Shown one piece after another: positions 75 through 8,611 of a stretch of DNA of 64,000 bases. A program made the position numbers and the translations under genes. Below the pieces are notes generated by a model. That model saw only the letters and a list, made by a program, of their open reading frames with translations. It searched no databases and was not told the origin of the DNA. Source of the DNA: an uncultured Acholeplasmatales bacterium (GTDB lineage Bacteria > Bacillota_I > Bacilli_A > Acholeplasmatales > Anaeroplasmataceae); the NCBI GenBank assembly GCA_944324705.1, contig CALUXI010000002.1, positions 1 to 64,000 on the forward strand. Reading direction: 5' to 3'. Position 1 is the first letter of the stretch. Each line of letters starts with the position of its first letter.

Positions 75-98
75 AAAGTGATGTATAAACACCACTTT
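75..98 (-). terminator. Terminator of the pst-pho operon
   Basis: A 10-bp stem with one mismatch and a 4-base loop (arms 75-84 and 89-98) is followed on the minus strand by a T run (plus-strand A run 71-77). It overlaps the phoR stop codon, so it ends the pst-pho transcript. Confidence 0.75.
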
Positions 99-1743
99 AA
101 AATATTATTTTAACTTCAGTACCTATATTTAAAGTACTATCAAGTTCTACTTTATAACCAAATTTTTCACAAATATGTTTAACTATAGCTAAACCTAAAC
201 CTGTGCCACCAGTTTCTTTACTTTTGGCTTTATCAACTCTATAAAACCTTTCAAATACGCGACTTATATCTTCTTTAGGTATTCCAATACCTGTGTCTTT
301 AACAATTAAATCTTTATCTAATTTTATTTCAATTGTTCCTTTTTCTTTATTATATTTAATTGCATTATCTATTATATTAGATAATAGGGTTTCAATCTGT
401 TCTTTATTAGCTTTAATAGTTTTATCTTTTAAATCTAATTTTAGTTTTATTTTCTTATCTTTAATTCTTGTATTATATCTTTCTACAATATTATTGATTA
501 TATCTTTTAAATTAATATCTACTAATTCATAAGTTTTAGAAAATTCTAAATTAGATAATTCTAACATATCTATAATAATTTGATTCATTCTATTAGCTTC
601 TTTTAAAATGTTTATTGAAGCTTCTTTTATTTCATCCTTATCGTCAATAATACCATTTAAAATCATTTGTTCATAACCTATTATTGAAGTAAGTGGACTC
701 TTAAGTTCATGACTAGCATTAGCAAAGAAGTCTTTTTTAATAACTTCAATTTTTTCTCTTTCTGTCATATCTTTTAAAGAGATTAAAATATGTAAGGAAT
801 TGAAAGGAATTAGATTTACATCATATACTCTATTTTCAATATTTATAGTTAAATGTTTTTTTAATTTAGTATTTTTTACTTCTTTAATTGCTTCTAAAAG
901 ATCATTATTTCTAATTAAATAAATATAATTTTTATCAATTACACTTTCTTCATTAACCATAAATAGTTTTAATGCTTGATTGTTAATTAGAATAACATTA
1001 TCATCTTTTAATAAAATTAAGCATTCATCAATAGCTTGAATAATAGTTTCATTTTTCATGCTTTCTTCTTTTATTAATTTAATTTTATTAGCAATTAATA
1101 ACTTTAACGCTGTGATTATTTCTGGTAATTGATCTATATTATCAGTTTTAAACACTATATCAGCATCAGCTATTAAAGCTAATTCATTGATCTTACTATT
1201 AATTGGCTTTAACATTTTTTTAGATACAATAAATAAAACTATTACCGCTACACTAGTTATAGCTATAATAGCAAATATACCTATAACCGCATACATAATT
1301 GTGCTAGTAGCAAAATAAGCTGAATCAAAAGATAATCTAATATAAGTATTACCTTCTAAGGCTGCAATATACATCATTTTCTTATCTAAATTATCAGATT
1401 CCCTAATAACTACTTCACCTAAGTTTCTTATTTCTTCTCTATTTAAATGATTATCAAAATCAGAAATATTATATTCTAAAACCGAATCATACAAAACATT
1501 ACCATTAATATCGATAAAGGTAACTCTTAGTCTATCATCTAAACTAACAATCTTACCAGCTGTATCAGCATAATTTTTTAAACTATCATCATAAAAATCT
1601 TCAGCTACATTTAAATATATTTTAATTTCTTCTCGAGCTTTACTTCTATTTTCATTACCTAAAACAATTAAAGATATTGTATATAATAGGACTAACACAA
1701 TCAAAACGAGCAAAGAAGTCATTAATATTACACGTTTTTTCAT
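97..1743 (-). CDS. phoR: PhoR sensor histidine kinase
   Basis: Membrane sensor kinase of the phosphate-starvation two-component system; it autophosphorylates and passes phosphate to PhoP. The 548 residues show membrane segment 1 at about 5-28, an extracytoplasmic sensor region to about 145, membrane segment 2 at about 147-173, a HAMP/PAS-like linker (about 175-325), the dimerisation/phospho-acceptor site ANASHELKSP with His345, and the ATP-binding domain with N-box asparagines 456/460, the G1 motif DTGIGI at 482-487 and the G2 motif GGTGLGLA at 512-519. The start overlaps the phoP stop as ATGA, so the two are translationally coupled. It is the last gene of the pst operon, which makes PhoR more likely than another class-I kinase. 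Nothing essential is missing. Confidence 0.93.
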   Translation of the reverse strand: MKKRVILMTSLLVLIVLVLLYTISLIVLGNENRSKAREEIKIYLNVAEDFYDDSLKNYADTAGKIVSLDDRLRVTFIDINGNVLYDSVLEYNISDFDNHLNREEIRNLGEVVIRESDNLDKKMMYIAALEGNTYIRLSFDSAYFATSTIMYAVIGIFAIIAITSVAVIVLFIVSKKMLKPINSKINELALIADADIVFKTDNIDQLPEIITALKLLIANKIKLIKEESMKNETIIQAIDECLILLKDDNVILINNQALKLFMVNEESVIDKNYIYLIRNNDLLEAIKEVKNTKLKKHLTINIENRVYDVNLIPFNSLHILISLKDMTEREKIEVIKKDFFANASHELKSPLTSIIGYEQMILNGIIDDKDEIKEASINILKEANRMNQIIIDMLELSNLEFSKTYELVDINLKDIINNIVERYNTRIKDKKIKLKLDLKDKTIKANKEQIETLLSNIIDNAIKYNKEKGTIEIKLDKDLIVKDTGIGIPKEDISRVFERFYRVDKAKSKETGGTGLGLAIVKHICEKFGYKVELDSTLNIGTEVKIIF

Positions 1744-2408
1744 AATTCAACCTTATAGCCTACACCATAAACAGTTTTTATTAAATCATCACTTGTTTTC
1801 TTTCTAATTGATTTAATATGCATATCTAAAGTTCTCGTTTCTAAACCATAATTAGAGCCCCAAACTTCTCTAAATATTTCTTCTCTTGTTAAAACTGTAT
1901 TATTATTTTTAGCTAACATATAAAGAATATCAAATTCTTTATTAGTAAGTTCAACTTGTTTACCTTCATATATACATTTTCTATTATTTTGATCTAATAA
2001 TAAATAGCCATAATCTAATATCTCTTTTTTCTTTTTATGACGACGTAATTTAGCATTTACCCTGCTCATTAATTCAAGTAAATCAAAAGGTTTTTCAATA
2101 TAATCATCAGCGCCTAAATCTAAACCCTCAACCTTATCTACTAGCATATGTTTAGCGCTGACAATTATAATTTCAATATTATCATTATCTTCATTTTTTC
2201 TTATTTCTTTTAAAATATCTAATCCACTACAATCTGGTAACATTAAATCTAACAAAATTAAATCTGGTTTAACTTTATCAAATCTTTTAAAAAAATCTTT
2301 GCCATTACTGAAACTAAAAACATCATAACCTTGTTTTAATAAGGTTTTATTAATAATTTGAGCAATATCTTTATCGTCTTCAATTGAATAAATCACAAAT
2401 GGCATCAT
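1740..2408 (-). CDS. phoP: PhoP response regulator (OmpR/PhoB family)
   Basis: DNA-binding response regulator partnered with the adjoining PhoR. The receiver domain (about 4-120) has the acidic pair Asp11/Asp12, phospho-acceptor Asp54 (in LLDLMLPD), Ser84 and Lys106. The winged-helix C-terminal domain covers about 130-222 and ends with the family's TVYGVGYKVE. The length of 222 residues is typical. Two adjacent ATG codons begin the frame; either could be used. It lies 9 bases after phoU. Its probable targets are the TTTACA direct repeats at 7099-7126 and 59502-59518 in this window. Confidence 0.94.
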   Translation of the reverse strand: MMPFVIYSIEDDKDIAQIINKTLLKQGYDVFSFSNGKDFFKRFDKVKPDLILLDLMLPDCSGLDILKEIRKNEDNDNIEIIIVSAKHMLVDKVEGLDLGADDYIEKPFDLLELMSRVNAKLRRHKKKKEILDYGYLLLDQNNRKCIYEGKQVELTNKEFDILYMLAKNNNTVLTREEIFREVWGSNYGLETRTLDMHIKSIRKKTSDDLIKTVYGVGYKVEL

Positions 2409-2417
2409 ATCACGCCC

Positions 2418-3056
2418 CTAATATATTTTCTTGTCTTTATAAAAACCACTAACAATATAAATTACCCATTCTGCTATATTAACAGAATGATCGGCTATTC
2501 TTTCTAAATACTTAACAACTAAAGTACTATAAATCGCAAAAGGTAAATAACCTTCTTCTTCATTTTCCGGATGACCTAAAGATTCAACTATTTCATCATA
2601 TTTATTATCAACATAATCATCAGAATCAATAATTGATTGAGCTAATTTTACATCACTATTTATATAGGCATTAATTGATTTTTTTAACATATCAATAACA
2701 AATTTAGCTAATTCATCAATTGCTTCTAAATGTTTAGTTCTAACTTTAACTTCTTTTAATTTATTTGAAAAAGTTACAATATCTTCAGCATGATCCCCTA
2801 TTCTTTCTAAATCAGTAACCAATTTCAAAATACCAGTAACTTGTTTTAAATCAGAAGCATAAGGTCTTTCTCTAAGCAAAATAGTTAAACACATTTCTTC
2901 AATTAATCTTTCAAATTTATCAACTACATCATCATTAACTATTTCATCTGTTTTACCTAAATAATTATTTAATGATATGTCAATATTATCAACAACTACA
3001 TCACCCATTTTAAGCAACATTTGTTTTAAATTTTCAATTTCATCTCTTAATTTCAT
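2418..3056 (-). CDS. phoU: PhoU phosphate signalling protein
   Basis: Peripheral regulator linking the PstSCAB transporter to PhoR signalling. The product has 212 residues in two similar three-helix PhoU repeats; E/D-rich metal-binding helices such as LERIGDHAEDIV and LERIADHSVNIAEW are visible in each half. A longer frame opens further upstream inside pstB, but the ATG at 3056 is preferred. It follows the pstB TAA by one base, has a good GGAAGG ribosome binding site about 9 bases upstream, and gives the usual family length and N-terminus (MKLRDEIENLKQ). Confidence 0.92.
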   Translation of the reverse strand: MKLRDEIENLKQMLLKMGDVVVDNIDISLNNYLGKTDEIVNDDVVDKFERLIEEMCLTILLRERPYASDLKQVTGILKLVTDLERIGDHAEDIVTFSNKLKEVKVRTKHLEAIDELAKFVIDMLKKSINAYINSDVKLAQSIIDSDDYVDNKYDEIVESLGHPENEEEGYLPFAIYSTLVVKYLERIADHSVNIAEWVIYIVSGFYKDKKIY

Positions 3057-3057
3057 A

Positions 3058-3831
3058 TTAACCAAACCTTCCTGTAATATAATCTTCCGTTCTTTTATCT
3101 CTAGGATTTTTAAATAATTCATCTGTATCATTAAATTCTACCATTTCACCTAACAAGAAAAAGGCTGTTTGATCAGAAACTCTTGTTGCTTGTTGCATAT
3201 TGTGTGTAACAATAACAATTGTATAATCCTCTTTTAATGTAGAAATTAATTCTTCTATTTTTAAAGTGGCAATAGGGTCTAAAGCTGAAGTTGGTTCATC
3301 CATTAAAATAACTTCTGGTTTCATAGCTATTGTTCTAGCTATACAAAGTCTTTGTTGTTGACCACCTGATAAACCTAAAGCATTATCTTTAAGTCTATCT
3401 TTAACTTCATCATATAAACTTGCTTTCTTTAATGAATCAACTACAATTTCTAATAATTTAGCTTTATTTTTAATTCCACTACAACGAGGTCCGTAAGCAA
3501 CATTATCAAAAATTGACATTGGAAATGGATTAGGTTGTTGGAAGACCATTCCGACTCTAGTTCTTAAATCAATTGGGTTCATAGCTTTAATATCTTGACC
3601 TTTAAATAAAATTTCACCTTCTATTTTACAATTAGGAATTAAGTCATTCATTCTATTTAAACATCTAAGTAAAGTTGATTTACCACAACCAGAAGGGCCA
3701 ATAAAAGCTGTAACCTTATTGTGAGCCAATTTTAAATTAACTCCTTTTAAAGTATGTTTTTCCCCATAATATAGATTGACATTTTTTATTTCAAAATCTA
3801 ATGTTTCATTATTATTTATATTTTCTTGCAT
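3058..3831 (-). CDS. pstB: PstB phosphate ABC transporter ATPase
   Basis: ATP-binding subunit that powers high-affinity phosphate import by PstCA. The 257 residues show Walker A GPSGCGKS at 45-52, the Q-loop at QQPNPFP, signature LSGGQ at 154-158, Walker B VILMDEP with Glu179, and the switch histidine in [10 protein letters not shown]. The LDPIAT and NPFPMSI segments are characteristic of PstB rather than of other ABC ATPases. The gene sits 2 bases after pstA and is followed directly by phoU. Confidence 0.96.
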
Positions 3832-3833
3832 AA

Positions 3834-5108
3834 CTATACCGCCATTTTATTCATTTTTTTACTAATTAATTTAACTAAAATAGACATTATCAATACAACA
3901 ATCAAAATAATGATTGCGATTGCTGAAGCTGCCCCATAATTAGGATTTTCACCTTGCATAATTGACCAAATATGAACAGCTAAACTTGTTGAAGCCTTAG
4001 TCACATTAATGTCATCTTGAATTGAAGTCCCCATAACAAATATCAAGGCTGCAGATTCCCCAATTATTCTACCAATAGAAAGGAGAGTTGCTGCTAAAAT
4101 ACCTGGGATAGCATTAGGTAAAATAACTTTAAAAACTGTTTGCGTTTTAGAAGCTCCTAAAGCTAAACTTGCCATTGTGTAGTGTCGAGGAATAACTAAT
4201 AAACTTTCATTAACTGTTTTAATAATTGTTGGCAATAAAACAATTGTCATTGTAAATGCCCCTGCTAAAATACTAAAACCAGAGGTTTTAAATGTCGTAT
4301 CACAAAACGGAATAAATATTAAAGCCCCACAAAAACCAAAGATAATACTAGGAATACCTGCCGTCATATCAATCATGGTTGTTATTATTGTCTTTAGTTT
4401 ACCATCTCTTGCATATTGGGTCAAGAATATTGAAGTAATTATCCCTATTGGTAAAGATATAATTAAAGTTAACAATATTAAATATAATGTAGTTATTAAA
4501 CTACCTCTTGCCCCACCACCTGAGGTTTTACATTGCATAGTTTCAATTACCTTAGCTGTATTTAAAGTTTCTGCAATATCTTCTGCACCCTTATTAGCGC
4601 CAATAATTTGTAATTTATCTTCATCATCTAAGATTCTAATTGTATCAATATTATCACCAACTTTAACTTCATAGGTAATACTATTATCTTGCGTAGTTTT
4701 AGCCTTTTTTAGTGGTGAATTAGGATCAATATAAGCGATTGTAACACATTTTTCATTAGCTGTATCACGACCATCTTTTACACTTATTCCAAATCTAGAT
4801 ATAAAATAAGAATCAGCTATATTCGGGTCTTTAAAAGTCAAACTGTCATCATATTCAACTGTTATAGTATTAAGGTGTTCTTGATAATCATCTACTAATA
4901 AATTCCATGAAAGAGCAGATGAACCTGTTACTAAAATATAAATTATTATCCCACCTAAAACAACTACTAGAAATAATGAAGAAAAGTAAGTAGGAATAAG
5001 CTTTAAAATATCCCCTACTTTTTTCATTTTTAAATAAGTATCGTTAGGTTTCTTTTGTTCAATAACAACTTCACCTTCTAATTTAGTTTCTTCCTTAAGC
5101 TTGTTCAT
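3834..5108 (-). CDS. pstA: PstA phosphate permease with an extra PDZ-like domain
   Basis: Inner-membrane permease subunit, partner of PstC. At 424 residues it is about 130 longer than typical PstA. After membrane segment 1 (about 40-62) comes an extracytoplasmic stretch. Residues about 104-190 read like a PDZ fold: GISV near 107, [12 protein letters not shown] (126-136), KVGDNID (149-155) and a closing helix [10 protein letters not shown]. The permease core runs from about 202 to 420 and carries the EAA-like loop [22 protein letters not shown]. The start overlaps pstC by 14 bases. The permease call is firm; the PDZ call rests on motif reading only. Confidence 0.9.
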
Positions 5109-6027
5109 AACGACAAATCATCCTCTTCACTAAGTTTAAAATAATATTAACAACTAAAATTGTAATTACTAATAAAATACCGACACTAAAACGAATATCA
5201 TAAGCAATACCACTAGATTCATGTAAGCCTAACATCATAGTTGAAGTTAAAGTACGAGTTGTATCAAAAATATTAAAGTTCGGACCGGTAATATTATTAC
5301 CACAAACCATAGATACCGCTGTAGCCTCACCTAAGGCTCTACCAACACCCAAAATTAAGGCTGCTGTAATACCTGATTTAGCTCCACCTAAGACTATTTT
5401 GAAATCAGTTTGGGTTTTACTTGCTCCTAAAGCAAGACTTGCTTCAATAACTGGTTTCTTAACAGCCTTCATACTAGTAATACTTAAAGTTGTAATCGTA
5501 GGAATCATCATAATTGCTAAAACAACAATTGTTGATAAACCAGAAATACCACCCGCTGTCTGAATGCCTAAAATATTACCTAAACCTTTAACAATTGGGT
5601 TGATTACCCCTCTACCAAATAAACCAAAAATAATTGATGGAATAGCGGCTAACAATTCAACTACATTTTGCATAATTATAGCCAACCATTTCGGAGCTAT
5701 TCTAACAATAAATAAAGCTGATAAAACAGATATTGGTAAGGCAATAATAGTAGCTAATAAAGTTAAATATATTGTATTAATGAAAGCTCCTAAAGCCCCA
5801 TAATTCAAATCTGTCCAAGTCCTTGAAAACAAGAATGTTAAAAGACTGGCCCTTTCAAGTCTTCCACTAATTTTAGGATATGTATTAGTAAAAGGCTTAA
5901 TTCCTTCTATTAAGATAAAAATAACAATAAAGATTATTGAGGAAGCAGCTAAAATTGCTATAGCAAGAAATATATATTTAAATATATTATCAAAAACAGT
6001 TTTTCTTTTTGAACTTGATTCAATCAT
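5095..6027 (-). CDS. pstC: PstC phosphate permease
   Basis: First permease subunit of the phosphate importer, 310 residues with about six membrane segments. Segment 1 lies at about 16-40, and the conserved cytoplasmic loop [24 protein letters not shown] marks a binding-protein-dependent permease. The motif AAIPSIIFGLFG is typical of the Pst permeases. The ribosome binding site AAAGGAG precedes the ATG. It is separated from pstS by a terminator-like hairpin, so pstS mRNA should exceed pstCAB mRNA. Confidence 0.93.
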   Translation of the reverse strand: MIESSSKRKTVFDNIFKYIFLAIAILAASSIIFIVIFILIEGIKPFTNTYPKISGRLERASLLTFLFSRTWTDLNYGALGAFINTIYLTLLATIIALPISVLSALFIVRIAPKWLAIIMQNVVELLAAIPSIIFGLFGRGVINPIVKGLGNILGIQTAGGISGLSTIVVLAIMMIPTITTLSITSMKAVKKPVIEASLALGASKTQTDFKIVLGGAKSGITAALILGVGRALGEATAVSMVCGNNITGPNFNIFDTTRTLTSTMMLGLHESSGIAYDIRFSVGILLVITILVVNIILNLVKRMICRYEQA

Positions 6028-6089: not shown

Positions 6090-7031
6090 TTACTCAGTAA
6101 TGCTAGACCAAGAAGTAATTTCGCCACTGAAAATTTGTTTTAATAATGCAGCATTAGCATCATCAATCTTATCGTTGTTTGGATTAACAATAGCTACAAT
6201 ACCATCTTTACAAATAGTACCATATGTACCTTCAGCAGCTGGTTCATCACCAGTTAATTCGATTTCTCTTGATAAGAAACCAATTTGTAAAGAACCTGTA
6301 CCATCTTTACCCTCACCTTGAGTATTCTTATAAGCATCACCTGAACCAGTATGATTATGACTAGGTTTGAAATGTGTAACTTCTTCAGCAAAAGCTTGAG
6401 TTAAAGCTTCAGCAATCTTTTCTACTGATGTAGAACCACCAAGATTAATTGTAACATCTTCTGTAATAGCTAAAGCGGCTAAAACATCAGGATCACTTGT
6501 TTTTAATTCAGACCATTTTGGAGAGGCACTAATTTCAGTCATTAAAATACCATCATTACTTGAAACAATAGTCATACCTTCATCTGAAGACATAAATTTA
6601 AGGAATGCTTTAACCATAGTAGCTTGATTTTCAGTCATATCAGCATCTTGAGCTACGATATAATTAAAGTTACGTGATAATTTATAAGTACCATTTTGAA
6701 CATTTTCAATAGTAGCTTCAACACCATCATAAGTTAAACCTTTAACAGTATCAGTTTCTAATACTGAAGCAAGTGAAGCATAACCAATACCATATTCATC
6801 ACCAGCAATAGATGTTAACATAGAACCATTTGAATCAACAATTACTGTACCTGGTGCTAATAACTTGTCATCACTCTTAGCATCTTCATAACCAATATTT
6901 GTAAAGAAACCATCACGAGTACCTGATGTAGTATCTCTACTATAAACTTTAATTTGATCTGTGTCTCCACAACCTGTTAAGGCAAATGCACAAACAAATC
7001 CAACTGCTAAACCTAATAAAACTTTTTTCAT
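6090..7031 (-). CDS. pstS: PstS phosphate-binding lipoprotein, apparently circularly permuted
   Basis: Surface lipoprotein that captures phosphate for PstCAB. Residues 1-21 form a lipoprotein signal ending in the lipobox LTGC (Cys21). The domain order is unusual. The segment normally found in the second half of PstS (SRDTTSGTRDGFF, then YGIGYASLASV and an FLKFMSSDEG helix) comes first. The normal N-terminal half (GGSTSVEKIAEAL, IGFLSREIE, DGIVAIVNPNN) follows, and the protein ends at FSGEITSWSSI, exactly where ordinary PstS would continue into the SGTR segment. Family assignment is firm from motifs and operon context; the permutation is read from motif order. The gene has a strong AAGGAG site and a Pho box upstream. 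Confidence 0.9.
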   Translation of the reverse strand: MKKVLLGLAVGFVCAFALTGCGDTDQIKVYSRDTTSGTRDGFFTNIGYEDAKSDDKLLAPGTVIVDSNGSMLTSIAGDEYGIGYASLASVLETDTVKGLTYDGVEATIENVQNGTYKLSRNFNYIVAQDADMTENQATMVKAFLKFMSSDEGMTIVSSNDGILMTEISASPKWSELKTSDPDVLAALAITEDVTINLGGSTSVEKIAEALTQAFAEEVTHFKPSHNHTGSGDAYKNTQGEGKDGTGSLQIGFLSREIELTGDEPAAEGTYGTICKDGIVAIVNPNNDKIDDANAALLKQIFSGEITSWSSITE

Positions 7032-7251: not shown

Positions 7252-7261
7252 GGTGATATTT

Positions 7262-8611
7262 ATGTTAAAAAGAAAAATTGACAATTTCCTACTAAACTGG
7301 AAAAAAGAACCTAATAGAAAACCTTTAATAGTTTCTGGAGCTAGACAAGTAGGTAAAACAACATCAATTAGAGAATTTGCCAAAAATTATGAATCTTTTG
7401 TTGAAATAAATTTCATTACTATGCCACAATTCAAAAATATCTTTAAAAATGGCTATGATGTCGATACCAGTATAAAAGAAATAAGCTTATTAAATCCTAA
7501 TTTTAATTTTATACCCTACCAAACATTAATATTTTTTGATGAAATTCAAGATTATCCTGATACTGCTACTTCTTTAAAACCTTTCAGTTTAGATGGTAGG
7601 TTTGACGTAATTTGTTCAGAATCTTTACTTGGTATTAATTATAAACAAATTTCTAGTATTCCTGTTGGTTTCAAAGAAAACTATACAATGTATTCTTTAG
7701 ATTTTGAAGAATATTTATGGGCTAATGACTATAATGAAAAACAAATTGATGACATCTATTCTTATATGAAAGAATTAAAACCTCTACCTGATGCCTATTT
7801 ATTTAAATTAAAAGAATTATTTAGAGATTATATTTTTGTTGGTGGAATGCCTGAGGCAGTTACTTTATTTATGAAATATAAATAGTTCAGTAAACCTTTT
7901 TCTGTTCAAAAAAGAATATATAATGACTATGAAGATGACATAACAAATTATGTAACTAGTTTAGATGTAGCTAAAGTAAAAAACGTATATAGGCACATAT
8001 CAAGTCAACTAGCTAAAGATAATCATAAATTTCAAATATCTAAAATAGGTCATGGGGCCAGATTTAGAGAATATAGTGGTACAGAAGAATGGCTTAAAGA
8101 TGCTGGTATAATAAACATAGCTTACAATCTTGAAACCTTAGAATTACCTCTAATTAGTTATGAATTAAAAGATTATTTTAGGATTTATTATGCTGAACAT
8201 TCTTTATTCATTGCCAATTTAGATGAAGAATCTAAAGAAGACTTAATAATCAATAATAATTATGAAATTTATAATGGGGCTTTATATGAAAGTTTAGTAT
8301 CTGAAACCTTAACTAAAGCAGGATATAACTTATACTTTTATAAAAATGAAGATTCTACTATCGAAATAGACTTTATTATTAGAGTAAAAAATGAAATTAT
8401 ACCTATCGAAGTTAAAAGAAAAAAGGGAAGAACTAAATCATTAGACACCTTACTAGCTAATAATATAATTAAATACGGAATTAAATTAACAAATTCAAAT
8501 ATTGGATTTTCAAACAATAAATTCACATTTCCTTATTATTTAACCTTCTTATTAAAAAGATTTTTCAAAGAAACTAATTATATAAAGTGGAATAGTCAAG
8601 ATCTCTTTTAG
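7262..8611 (+). pseudogene. AAA ATPase of the AAA_14/DUF4143 family, broken by in-frame TAG
   Basis: The ATG at 7262 (AGGTGAT site upstream) opens a frame that stops at a TAG at 7883-7885. The same frame then continues for 241 more sense codons to a second TAG at 8609-8611, so a single nonsense codon splits a protein of about 449 residues. The N-terminal part has Walker A GARQVGKTT, Walker B LIFFDEIQD and GGMPEAV at the start of DUF4143. The part after the stop has the family's helical middle and a C-terminal PD-(D/E)XK-like motif (EIDFIIR, then PIEVKRKKG). Such ATPases are widespread accessory genes of unclear role. Lone plus-strand gene between minus-strand operons; probably a pseudogene unless the stop is a sequencing error. 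Confidence 0.85.

Follow-up and report, generated by a model that had tools for sequence, protein, structure and literature searches.

A phosphate-binding protein whose sequence motifs appear in an unexpected order raises the question of whether its chain is circularly permuted and whether it still serves as the receptor of a phosphate importer. Such a protein is encoded by the pstS gene at 6090..7031 (minus strand; complete, ATG start, 313 aa) of the window, i.e., the whole 64,000-nucleotide stretch of DNA from an uncultured Acholeplasmatales bacterium that was analyzed. Taken as a whole, the locus is best explained, with a probability of about 0.93, by a gene whose product is a lipid-anchored, extracellular phosphate receptor that serves a complete Pst importer and has a circularly permuted chain.

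Chain order of the window PstS

Residues 1-20 (6972..7031, minus strand) form a predicted lipoprotein signal peptide with lipobox LTGC, ending at Cys21, which is conserved at 90% or more in a set of 62 permuted proteins (A4); based on these sequence features, the protein would be exported as a lipoprotein. The D2 segment (residues 24-164; 6540..6962, minus strand) corresponds to the usual second half of PstS; its residues 25-159 match positions 162-289 of TIGR02136, it carries the phosphate-loop motif SRDTTSGTRDGF, and it scores 200 bits with our own D2 HMM. It is followed by a new linker (residues 165-191; 6459..6539, minus strand), absent from canonical proteins, which bridges the old C- and N-termini. 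The D1 segment (residues 192-311; 6099..6458, minus strand), the usual first half, contains the motifs GGSTSVEKIAE, HTGSGDAYK, IGFLSRE, IVNPNN and FSGEITSW and scores 160 bits with our own D1 HMM. Positions 11-125 of PF12849 match residues 194-310 (81.7 bits, cut-off 27), and positions 25-157 of TIGR02136 match the C-terminal half. Both halves are homologous to the PstS profiles, in the order D2 (24-164) and D1 (192-311) instead of the canonical D1-then-D2. The original prediction had listed SGTRDGF and YGIGYASL first, and then GGSTSVEKIAE, IGFLSRE, IVNPNN and FSGEITSWSSI, and all of them were found in that order. Each half is present once, which excludes both a tandem and a truncated protein.

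In its native order, the window PstS matches TIGR02136 with 125.7 bits in two swapped stretches. When the sequence was rotated at residue 187/188, we obtained a single match of 138.1 bits that spans positions 40-289; rotating at a wrong site gave 118.2 bits. The gain in bits upon rotation is modest because a circle cut anywhere retains most of its matches, and at the level of sequence we consider the single, nearly full-length span as the decisive evidence for the rotation. Neither the native nor the rotated score reaches the curated whole-protein cut-off of TIGR02136 (206.6 bits). The protein is therefore a divergent relative, with functional divergence possible, and we classed it as a permuted relative and not as TIGR02136 proper.

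A search against the PDB sequences aligned the window PstS to the canonical Clostridium perfringens PstS chains 4Q8R and 4GD5 in two swapped pieces and to 4H1X in one collinear piece, residues 26-311 to 10-264. A profile built from the 62 permuted proteins likewise recovered 4H1X in one piece (5.8e-90) and the other solved PstS structures in two pieces or one half. The AlphaFold2 model, which was built with 61 permuted relatives, has a mean pLDDT of 87.8 and a pTM of 0.81; it presents a helix at residues 2-18, in the signal peptide region, and the linker as two short helices (173-179 and 181-187). The top Foldseek match of this model is 4H1X (E 1.5e-24, TM 0.85 by target, 291 columns, 28% identity), and canonical C. 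perfringens PstS aligns over 139-140 columns, i.e., one half only. Since Foldseek alignments follow chain order, this is the pattern expected from a rotated chain. Full-length matches to OpuAC and others are weaker (E 1e-5 and above, rmsd about 9) and reflect a general resemblance among binding proteins.

The permutation proposed in the original prediction is thus borne out by the swapped profile matches, by the collinearity that rotation restores and by the fold match to 4H1X. Of the checks suggested with it, three came out in its favor: the rotated protein gave one TIGR02136 match, the confident structure prediction found its sole strong full-length match in the likewise rotated 4H1X, and the same order recurs in dozens of independent genomes. 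The further proposal of a single clean cut between the lobes has to be modified. The cut does lie between the end of D1 (W308-S-S-I) and the start of D2 (I27-K-V-Y-S-R); the exchanged segments, however, are halves of the sequence that do not simply equal lobe 1 and lobe 2, and the old termini are connected by about 27 residues of new linker.

Linkers of this kind separate the two chain orders. Among 30 canonical ORFs, the D1-D2 joint has 0-6 residues, with another 2-9 residues from D2 to the chain end. In 184 permuted ORFs, the linker from the old C-terminus to the old N-terminus has 14-27 residues, and a median of 2 residues follow D1 before the chain stops. As judged from these lengths, the 14-27-residue linker is the derived feature.

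The rotated order is widespread. In a sample of the phylum of the window, 75 of 295 genomes had a match at 1e-5, at least 54 of them collinear and hence permuted, and most other matches fell in two swapped pieces or one half, as expected for canonical proteins; this count is biased toward permuted proteins because the query is itself permuted, and genomes with a remote PstS are missed. In the Clostridia-type phylum, that of Roseburia, 177 of 249 genomes had a match, at least nine of them permuted, and most among the matches listed were canonical. A GTDB scan yielded 514 candidate loci encoding relatives; all 80 retained loci were permuted, and by record title they come from Lachnospiraceae, Oscillospiraceae, Peptococcaceae, Christensenella, Anaerotignum, Roseburia, Streptococcus alactolyticus and others. 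Both chain orders coexist in S. alactolyticus, with one PstS of each kind. That dozens of independent genomes share the rotated order, some of them assembled as a single contig, indicates that it is due neither to chance nor to assembly. Together with its presence in the PDB, this recurrence also shows that the order is no oddity of the source genome, and we rejected the idea that the permuted PstS is unique to it. The rearranged PstS is real, old and common to many gut Firmicutes.

The pst operon and the probable ligand of the permuted receptor

The window carries a complete operon on one strand, from 7031 down to 97, in the order pstS-pstC-pstA-pstB-phoU-phoB-phoR, so that pstS shares its locus with pstC, pstA, pstB and phoU. 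The permease genes pstC (5095..6027, minus strand; 310 aa; TIGR02138, 216 bits) and pstA (3834..5108, minus strand; 424 aa; TIGR00974, 195.4 bits in two stretches), the ATPase gene pstB (3058..3831, minus strand; 257 aa; TIGR00972, 411 bits) and phoU (2418..3131, minus strand; 237 aa as listed; TIGR02135, 158.7 bits) all score over their cut-offs. The start of phoU is probably further in, since the listed ORF overlaps pstB. They are followed by genes for a PhoB-like response regulator (1740..2408, minus strand; PF00072 and PF00486) and a PhoR-like histidine kinase (97..1743, minus strand; PF00512 and PF02518). No second PstS match was found in the source genome (1.64 Mb, 55 contigs, 97% complete), which makes the window PstS its only one.

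The window PstA is about 120 residues longer than canonical PstA, and the extra residues, located in its N-terminal part, are possibly an extracellular docking element. PstA has about 380-425 aa in the Bacilli-type permuted operons and 271-334 aa in the canonical and Clostridia-type permuted operons. A coupling of the permutation to a long PstA (381-425 aa) was rejected as a rule, given that the Clostridia-type permuted operons mostly have a PstA of 273-334 aa. Two PstA proteins, of 507 and 572 aa, fall outside these ranges, possibly as fusions or because of wrong starts. In two operons with canonical PstS (L061:6083-7348 and L065:6574-7779), PstC is long (421 and 401 aa) instead of PstA.

In the window, we also observed an AAA_14-type ATPase gene (7253-8600, plus strand) with one in-frame TAG at 7883-7885; its frame stays open for more than 200 residues past the TAG, which suggests a pseudogene or read-through. 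The segment 8652-15089 (minus strand) encodes a 2145-residue protein rich in Asn, Leu and Ile, with an N-terminal hydrophobic segment, long near-identical internal repeats and no Pfam match.

Based on its motifs, the window PstS has candidate phosphate loops, whose correspondence to the E. coli residues is by motif reading only. The candidate ligand residues R32, S36, G37, T38, S200, S202, S230, S254 and R255, as well as G199, are invariant in the 62 permuted proteins. The lobes would assemble as in canonical PstS and enclose a single Pi between the loops R32/S36-G37-T38 and S200/S202/S230/S254. The new ends lie at the point at which the canonical chain passes from D1 to D2. The receptor would dock on PstCA, with its membrane tether now coming from the D2 side. 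Additional information comes from S. pneumoniae, in which the operon SP_2084-8 is known as Pst1 (PMC6722419) and is required for Pi uptake to be optimal when Pi is low (PMC4913102). SP_2084 encodes the protein solved as 4H1X, and the permuted class therefore provides the receptor of a functional phosphate importer in at least one species; the same would hold for the window protein. Most likely, the latter binds Pi with high affinity as an ordinary receptor lipoprotein, albeit one whose chain is rotated.

A receptor derived from PstS with a changed ligand, such as phosphonate, phosphite or an organophosphate, the permutation having accompanied the change, would agree with the score below the PstS cut-off. 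It would also agree with the apparent lack of an acidic residue like that of E. coli PstS, as the window PstS seems to have S254-R255 at the matching place; E. coli PstS reads phosphate with an acidic residue at this site. The complete pstSCAB-phoU-phoBR operon around the genome's only PstS, the invariance of the candidate loop residues across the 62 permuted proteins and the Pi uptake of the pneumococcal Pst1 system, which contains a permuted homologue (PMC6722419, PMC4913102), nevertheless make a changed ligand improbable. Even less credible, to the point of being practically negligible, is an artefact of assembly or of a frameshift, or the misreading of a tandem or truncated PstS as a rotated one: relatives do have tandem forms, and such a gene is broken in one assembly (G675), but the window PstS has each half once and the same order is found at many loci, including those of single-contig genomes, and in a crystal structure. 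With the halves single and the order widely recurrent, we rejected the artefact, the tandem misreading and the truncation, and we retain the phosphate receptor with a permuted chain.

Tandem fusions, a second permutation and the origin of the first

At least four relatives have two permuted copies in one ORF (D2-D1-D2-D1) heading their pst operons (L059:5821-7776, L073:7449-9224, L074:4091-5935 and L057:5316-7211). These ORFs have 591-651 aa (651 in G158, which is of the same genus as the window, 591 in G144, 614 in G033 and 631 in G110). In the PstS tree, the copies within one ORF are mutual closest relatives, which implies that fusion occurred at least three times or that conversion keeps the copies alike. 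At 3-9 residues, the joint between the copies resembles that between D1 and D2 in canonical PstS, which means that every fused chain has a D1-D2 of canonical form at its center. Unfused pstS genes are also found side by side, canonical in L065, L069 and L182 and permuted in L042, L113 and L135. In a single-contig assembly, G675, a tandem permuted pstS is split into two ORFs by a frameshift (L215:5417-7229, minus strand). It resembled an intermediate at first, but it looks like a frameshifted D2-D1-D2-D1 gene, due to real decay or sequencing error, and we set it aside.

One genome among the 88 searched in its family, G307, has a re-permuted pstS at the start of a complete pst operon (L058:5843-6772, minus strand). 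It encodes a 309-residue lipoprotein with the order D2c (model positions 112-148), D1 and D2n (9-110). Its second cut lies between the strand RPFMFVTRY and the following helix, a site different from that of the first cut, and the protein retains the 23-residue linker that the first permutation created (VTATDKSWDEVKENHPVTKLDNS). The nearest operon, in G610, has a singly permuted PstS, which the two G307 pieces match with 62% and 61% identity in swapped order, and sequence alignment showed that the G307 PstS is collinear with the interior of the tandem genes. Together, these three observations indicate that it comes from a PstS of the first permuted type, most simply via a fused tandem, and G307 thus provides comparative support for permutation by duplication. 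A direct derivation from the G144 tandem, which has the same genus code, was not supported, the nearest operon being that of G610 with its single permuted PstS. It is probable that this PstS lineage was permuted once, repeatedly fused in tandem and re-cut in G307, remaining each time the phosphate receptor of its operon. If this is true, the chain topology of the receptor is evolutionarily fluid with fold and function fixed, and the fused forms might pair lobes across repeats.

The first permutation probably arose when pstS was duplicated and the copies fused in frame, with the first D1 and the last D2 then being lost. Some steps of this route can still be seen in side-by-side pstS genes, fused D2-D1-D2-D1 forms and a re-permuted D2c-D1-D2n form; a canonical D1-D2-D1-D2 fusion was not seen among the genes surveyed.

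A single origin, before or during the spread of the operon through Bacilli and Clostridia, is favored, although not proven. We aligned the PstS proteins in a common D1-D2 order and rooted their tree on remote canonical proteins; the permuted proteins came together in the free tree, apart from L071, a long canonical row that was placed among them. When all permuted proteins were held as one clade, the likelihood was above that of the free search in the PstS tree (p-AU 0.867) and above that of the free tree for PstC-PstA-PstB (p-AU 0.623). These results, together with the identical cut site, speak against the permutation having arisen more than once at the same hinge, i.e., once in a Bacilli lineage comprising the window and its relatives with a longer PstA, and once in the Clostridia-type group. 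In support of separate events, midpoint rooting of the PstC-PstA-PstB tree places the Clostridia-type permuted operons beside canonical ones, so that two changes are needed, and the two permuted groups differ in linker length and PstA length. We consider such independent origins unlikely, but deserving of some weight, and keep the single origin as the favored reading.

Relation to known systems and significance

The closest known system is the S. pneumoniae PstS of 4H1X (SP_2084, named PstS 2 by its depositors and belonging to Pst1), which shows the same rotated order as the window PstS and is collinear with it over its full length (28% identity, TM 0.85). Its gene belongs to a phosphate ABC transporter operon with PhoU (PMC6722419). 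The residue 26-311 to 10-264 alignment and the 291-column fold match place the window PstS in the same class, from which it differs by its greater length (313 aa) and longer linker. With canonical PstS of the TIGR02136 / PF12849 kind (C. perfringens 4GD5 and 4Q8R; Vibrio cholerae 1TWY), it shares homology in both halves, the candidate ligand loops and the operon; it differs in having the halves reversed, a new linker, new termini and the membrane anchor on the other segment.

In 2016, the lipoprotein ABC receptor TpMglB-2 (Tp0684) of Treponema pallidum, a glucose-binding protein with relatives in Gram-positive bacteria, was described as naturally circularly permuted and proposed as "Type Ic" (PMC4990184). 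Binding is retained in TpMglB-2, but it has a Type I sugar-binding fold of an unrelated family and a different cut, with strands of the N-lobe moved to the C-terminus. No Type Ic protein appeared among the matches listed in our PDB sequence and fold searches, and the window protein is PstS-like. The permutation is mentioned neither in the PDB title of 4H1X nor in the open-licence papers searched on PstS structures and pneumococcal Pst systems, and the open-licence literature searched on PstS and circular permutation yielded only papers that, by title and abstract, look unrelated. Accordingly, the structure of a permuted PstS was already public, and the recognition of its permutation appears to be new.

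Natural circular permutations are rarely found alongside possible intermediates. Here, one operon slot shows canonical, side-by-side, permuted and fused permuted tandem forms, as well as a second permutation that keeps the first linker. With all of these forms in one family, the model of duplication, fusion and trimming becomes directly testable, and the family offers natural designs for permuted phosphate biosensors. The permutation also explains under-scored or split profile matches of PstS in many gut Firmicutes, and it affects their annotation. Finally, our results suggest that a receptor with a lipid anchor can be tethered by one segment or the other and yet be retained in a complete PstCAB operon.
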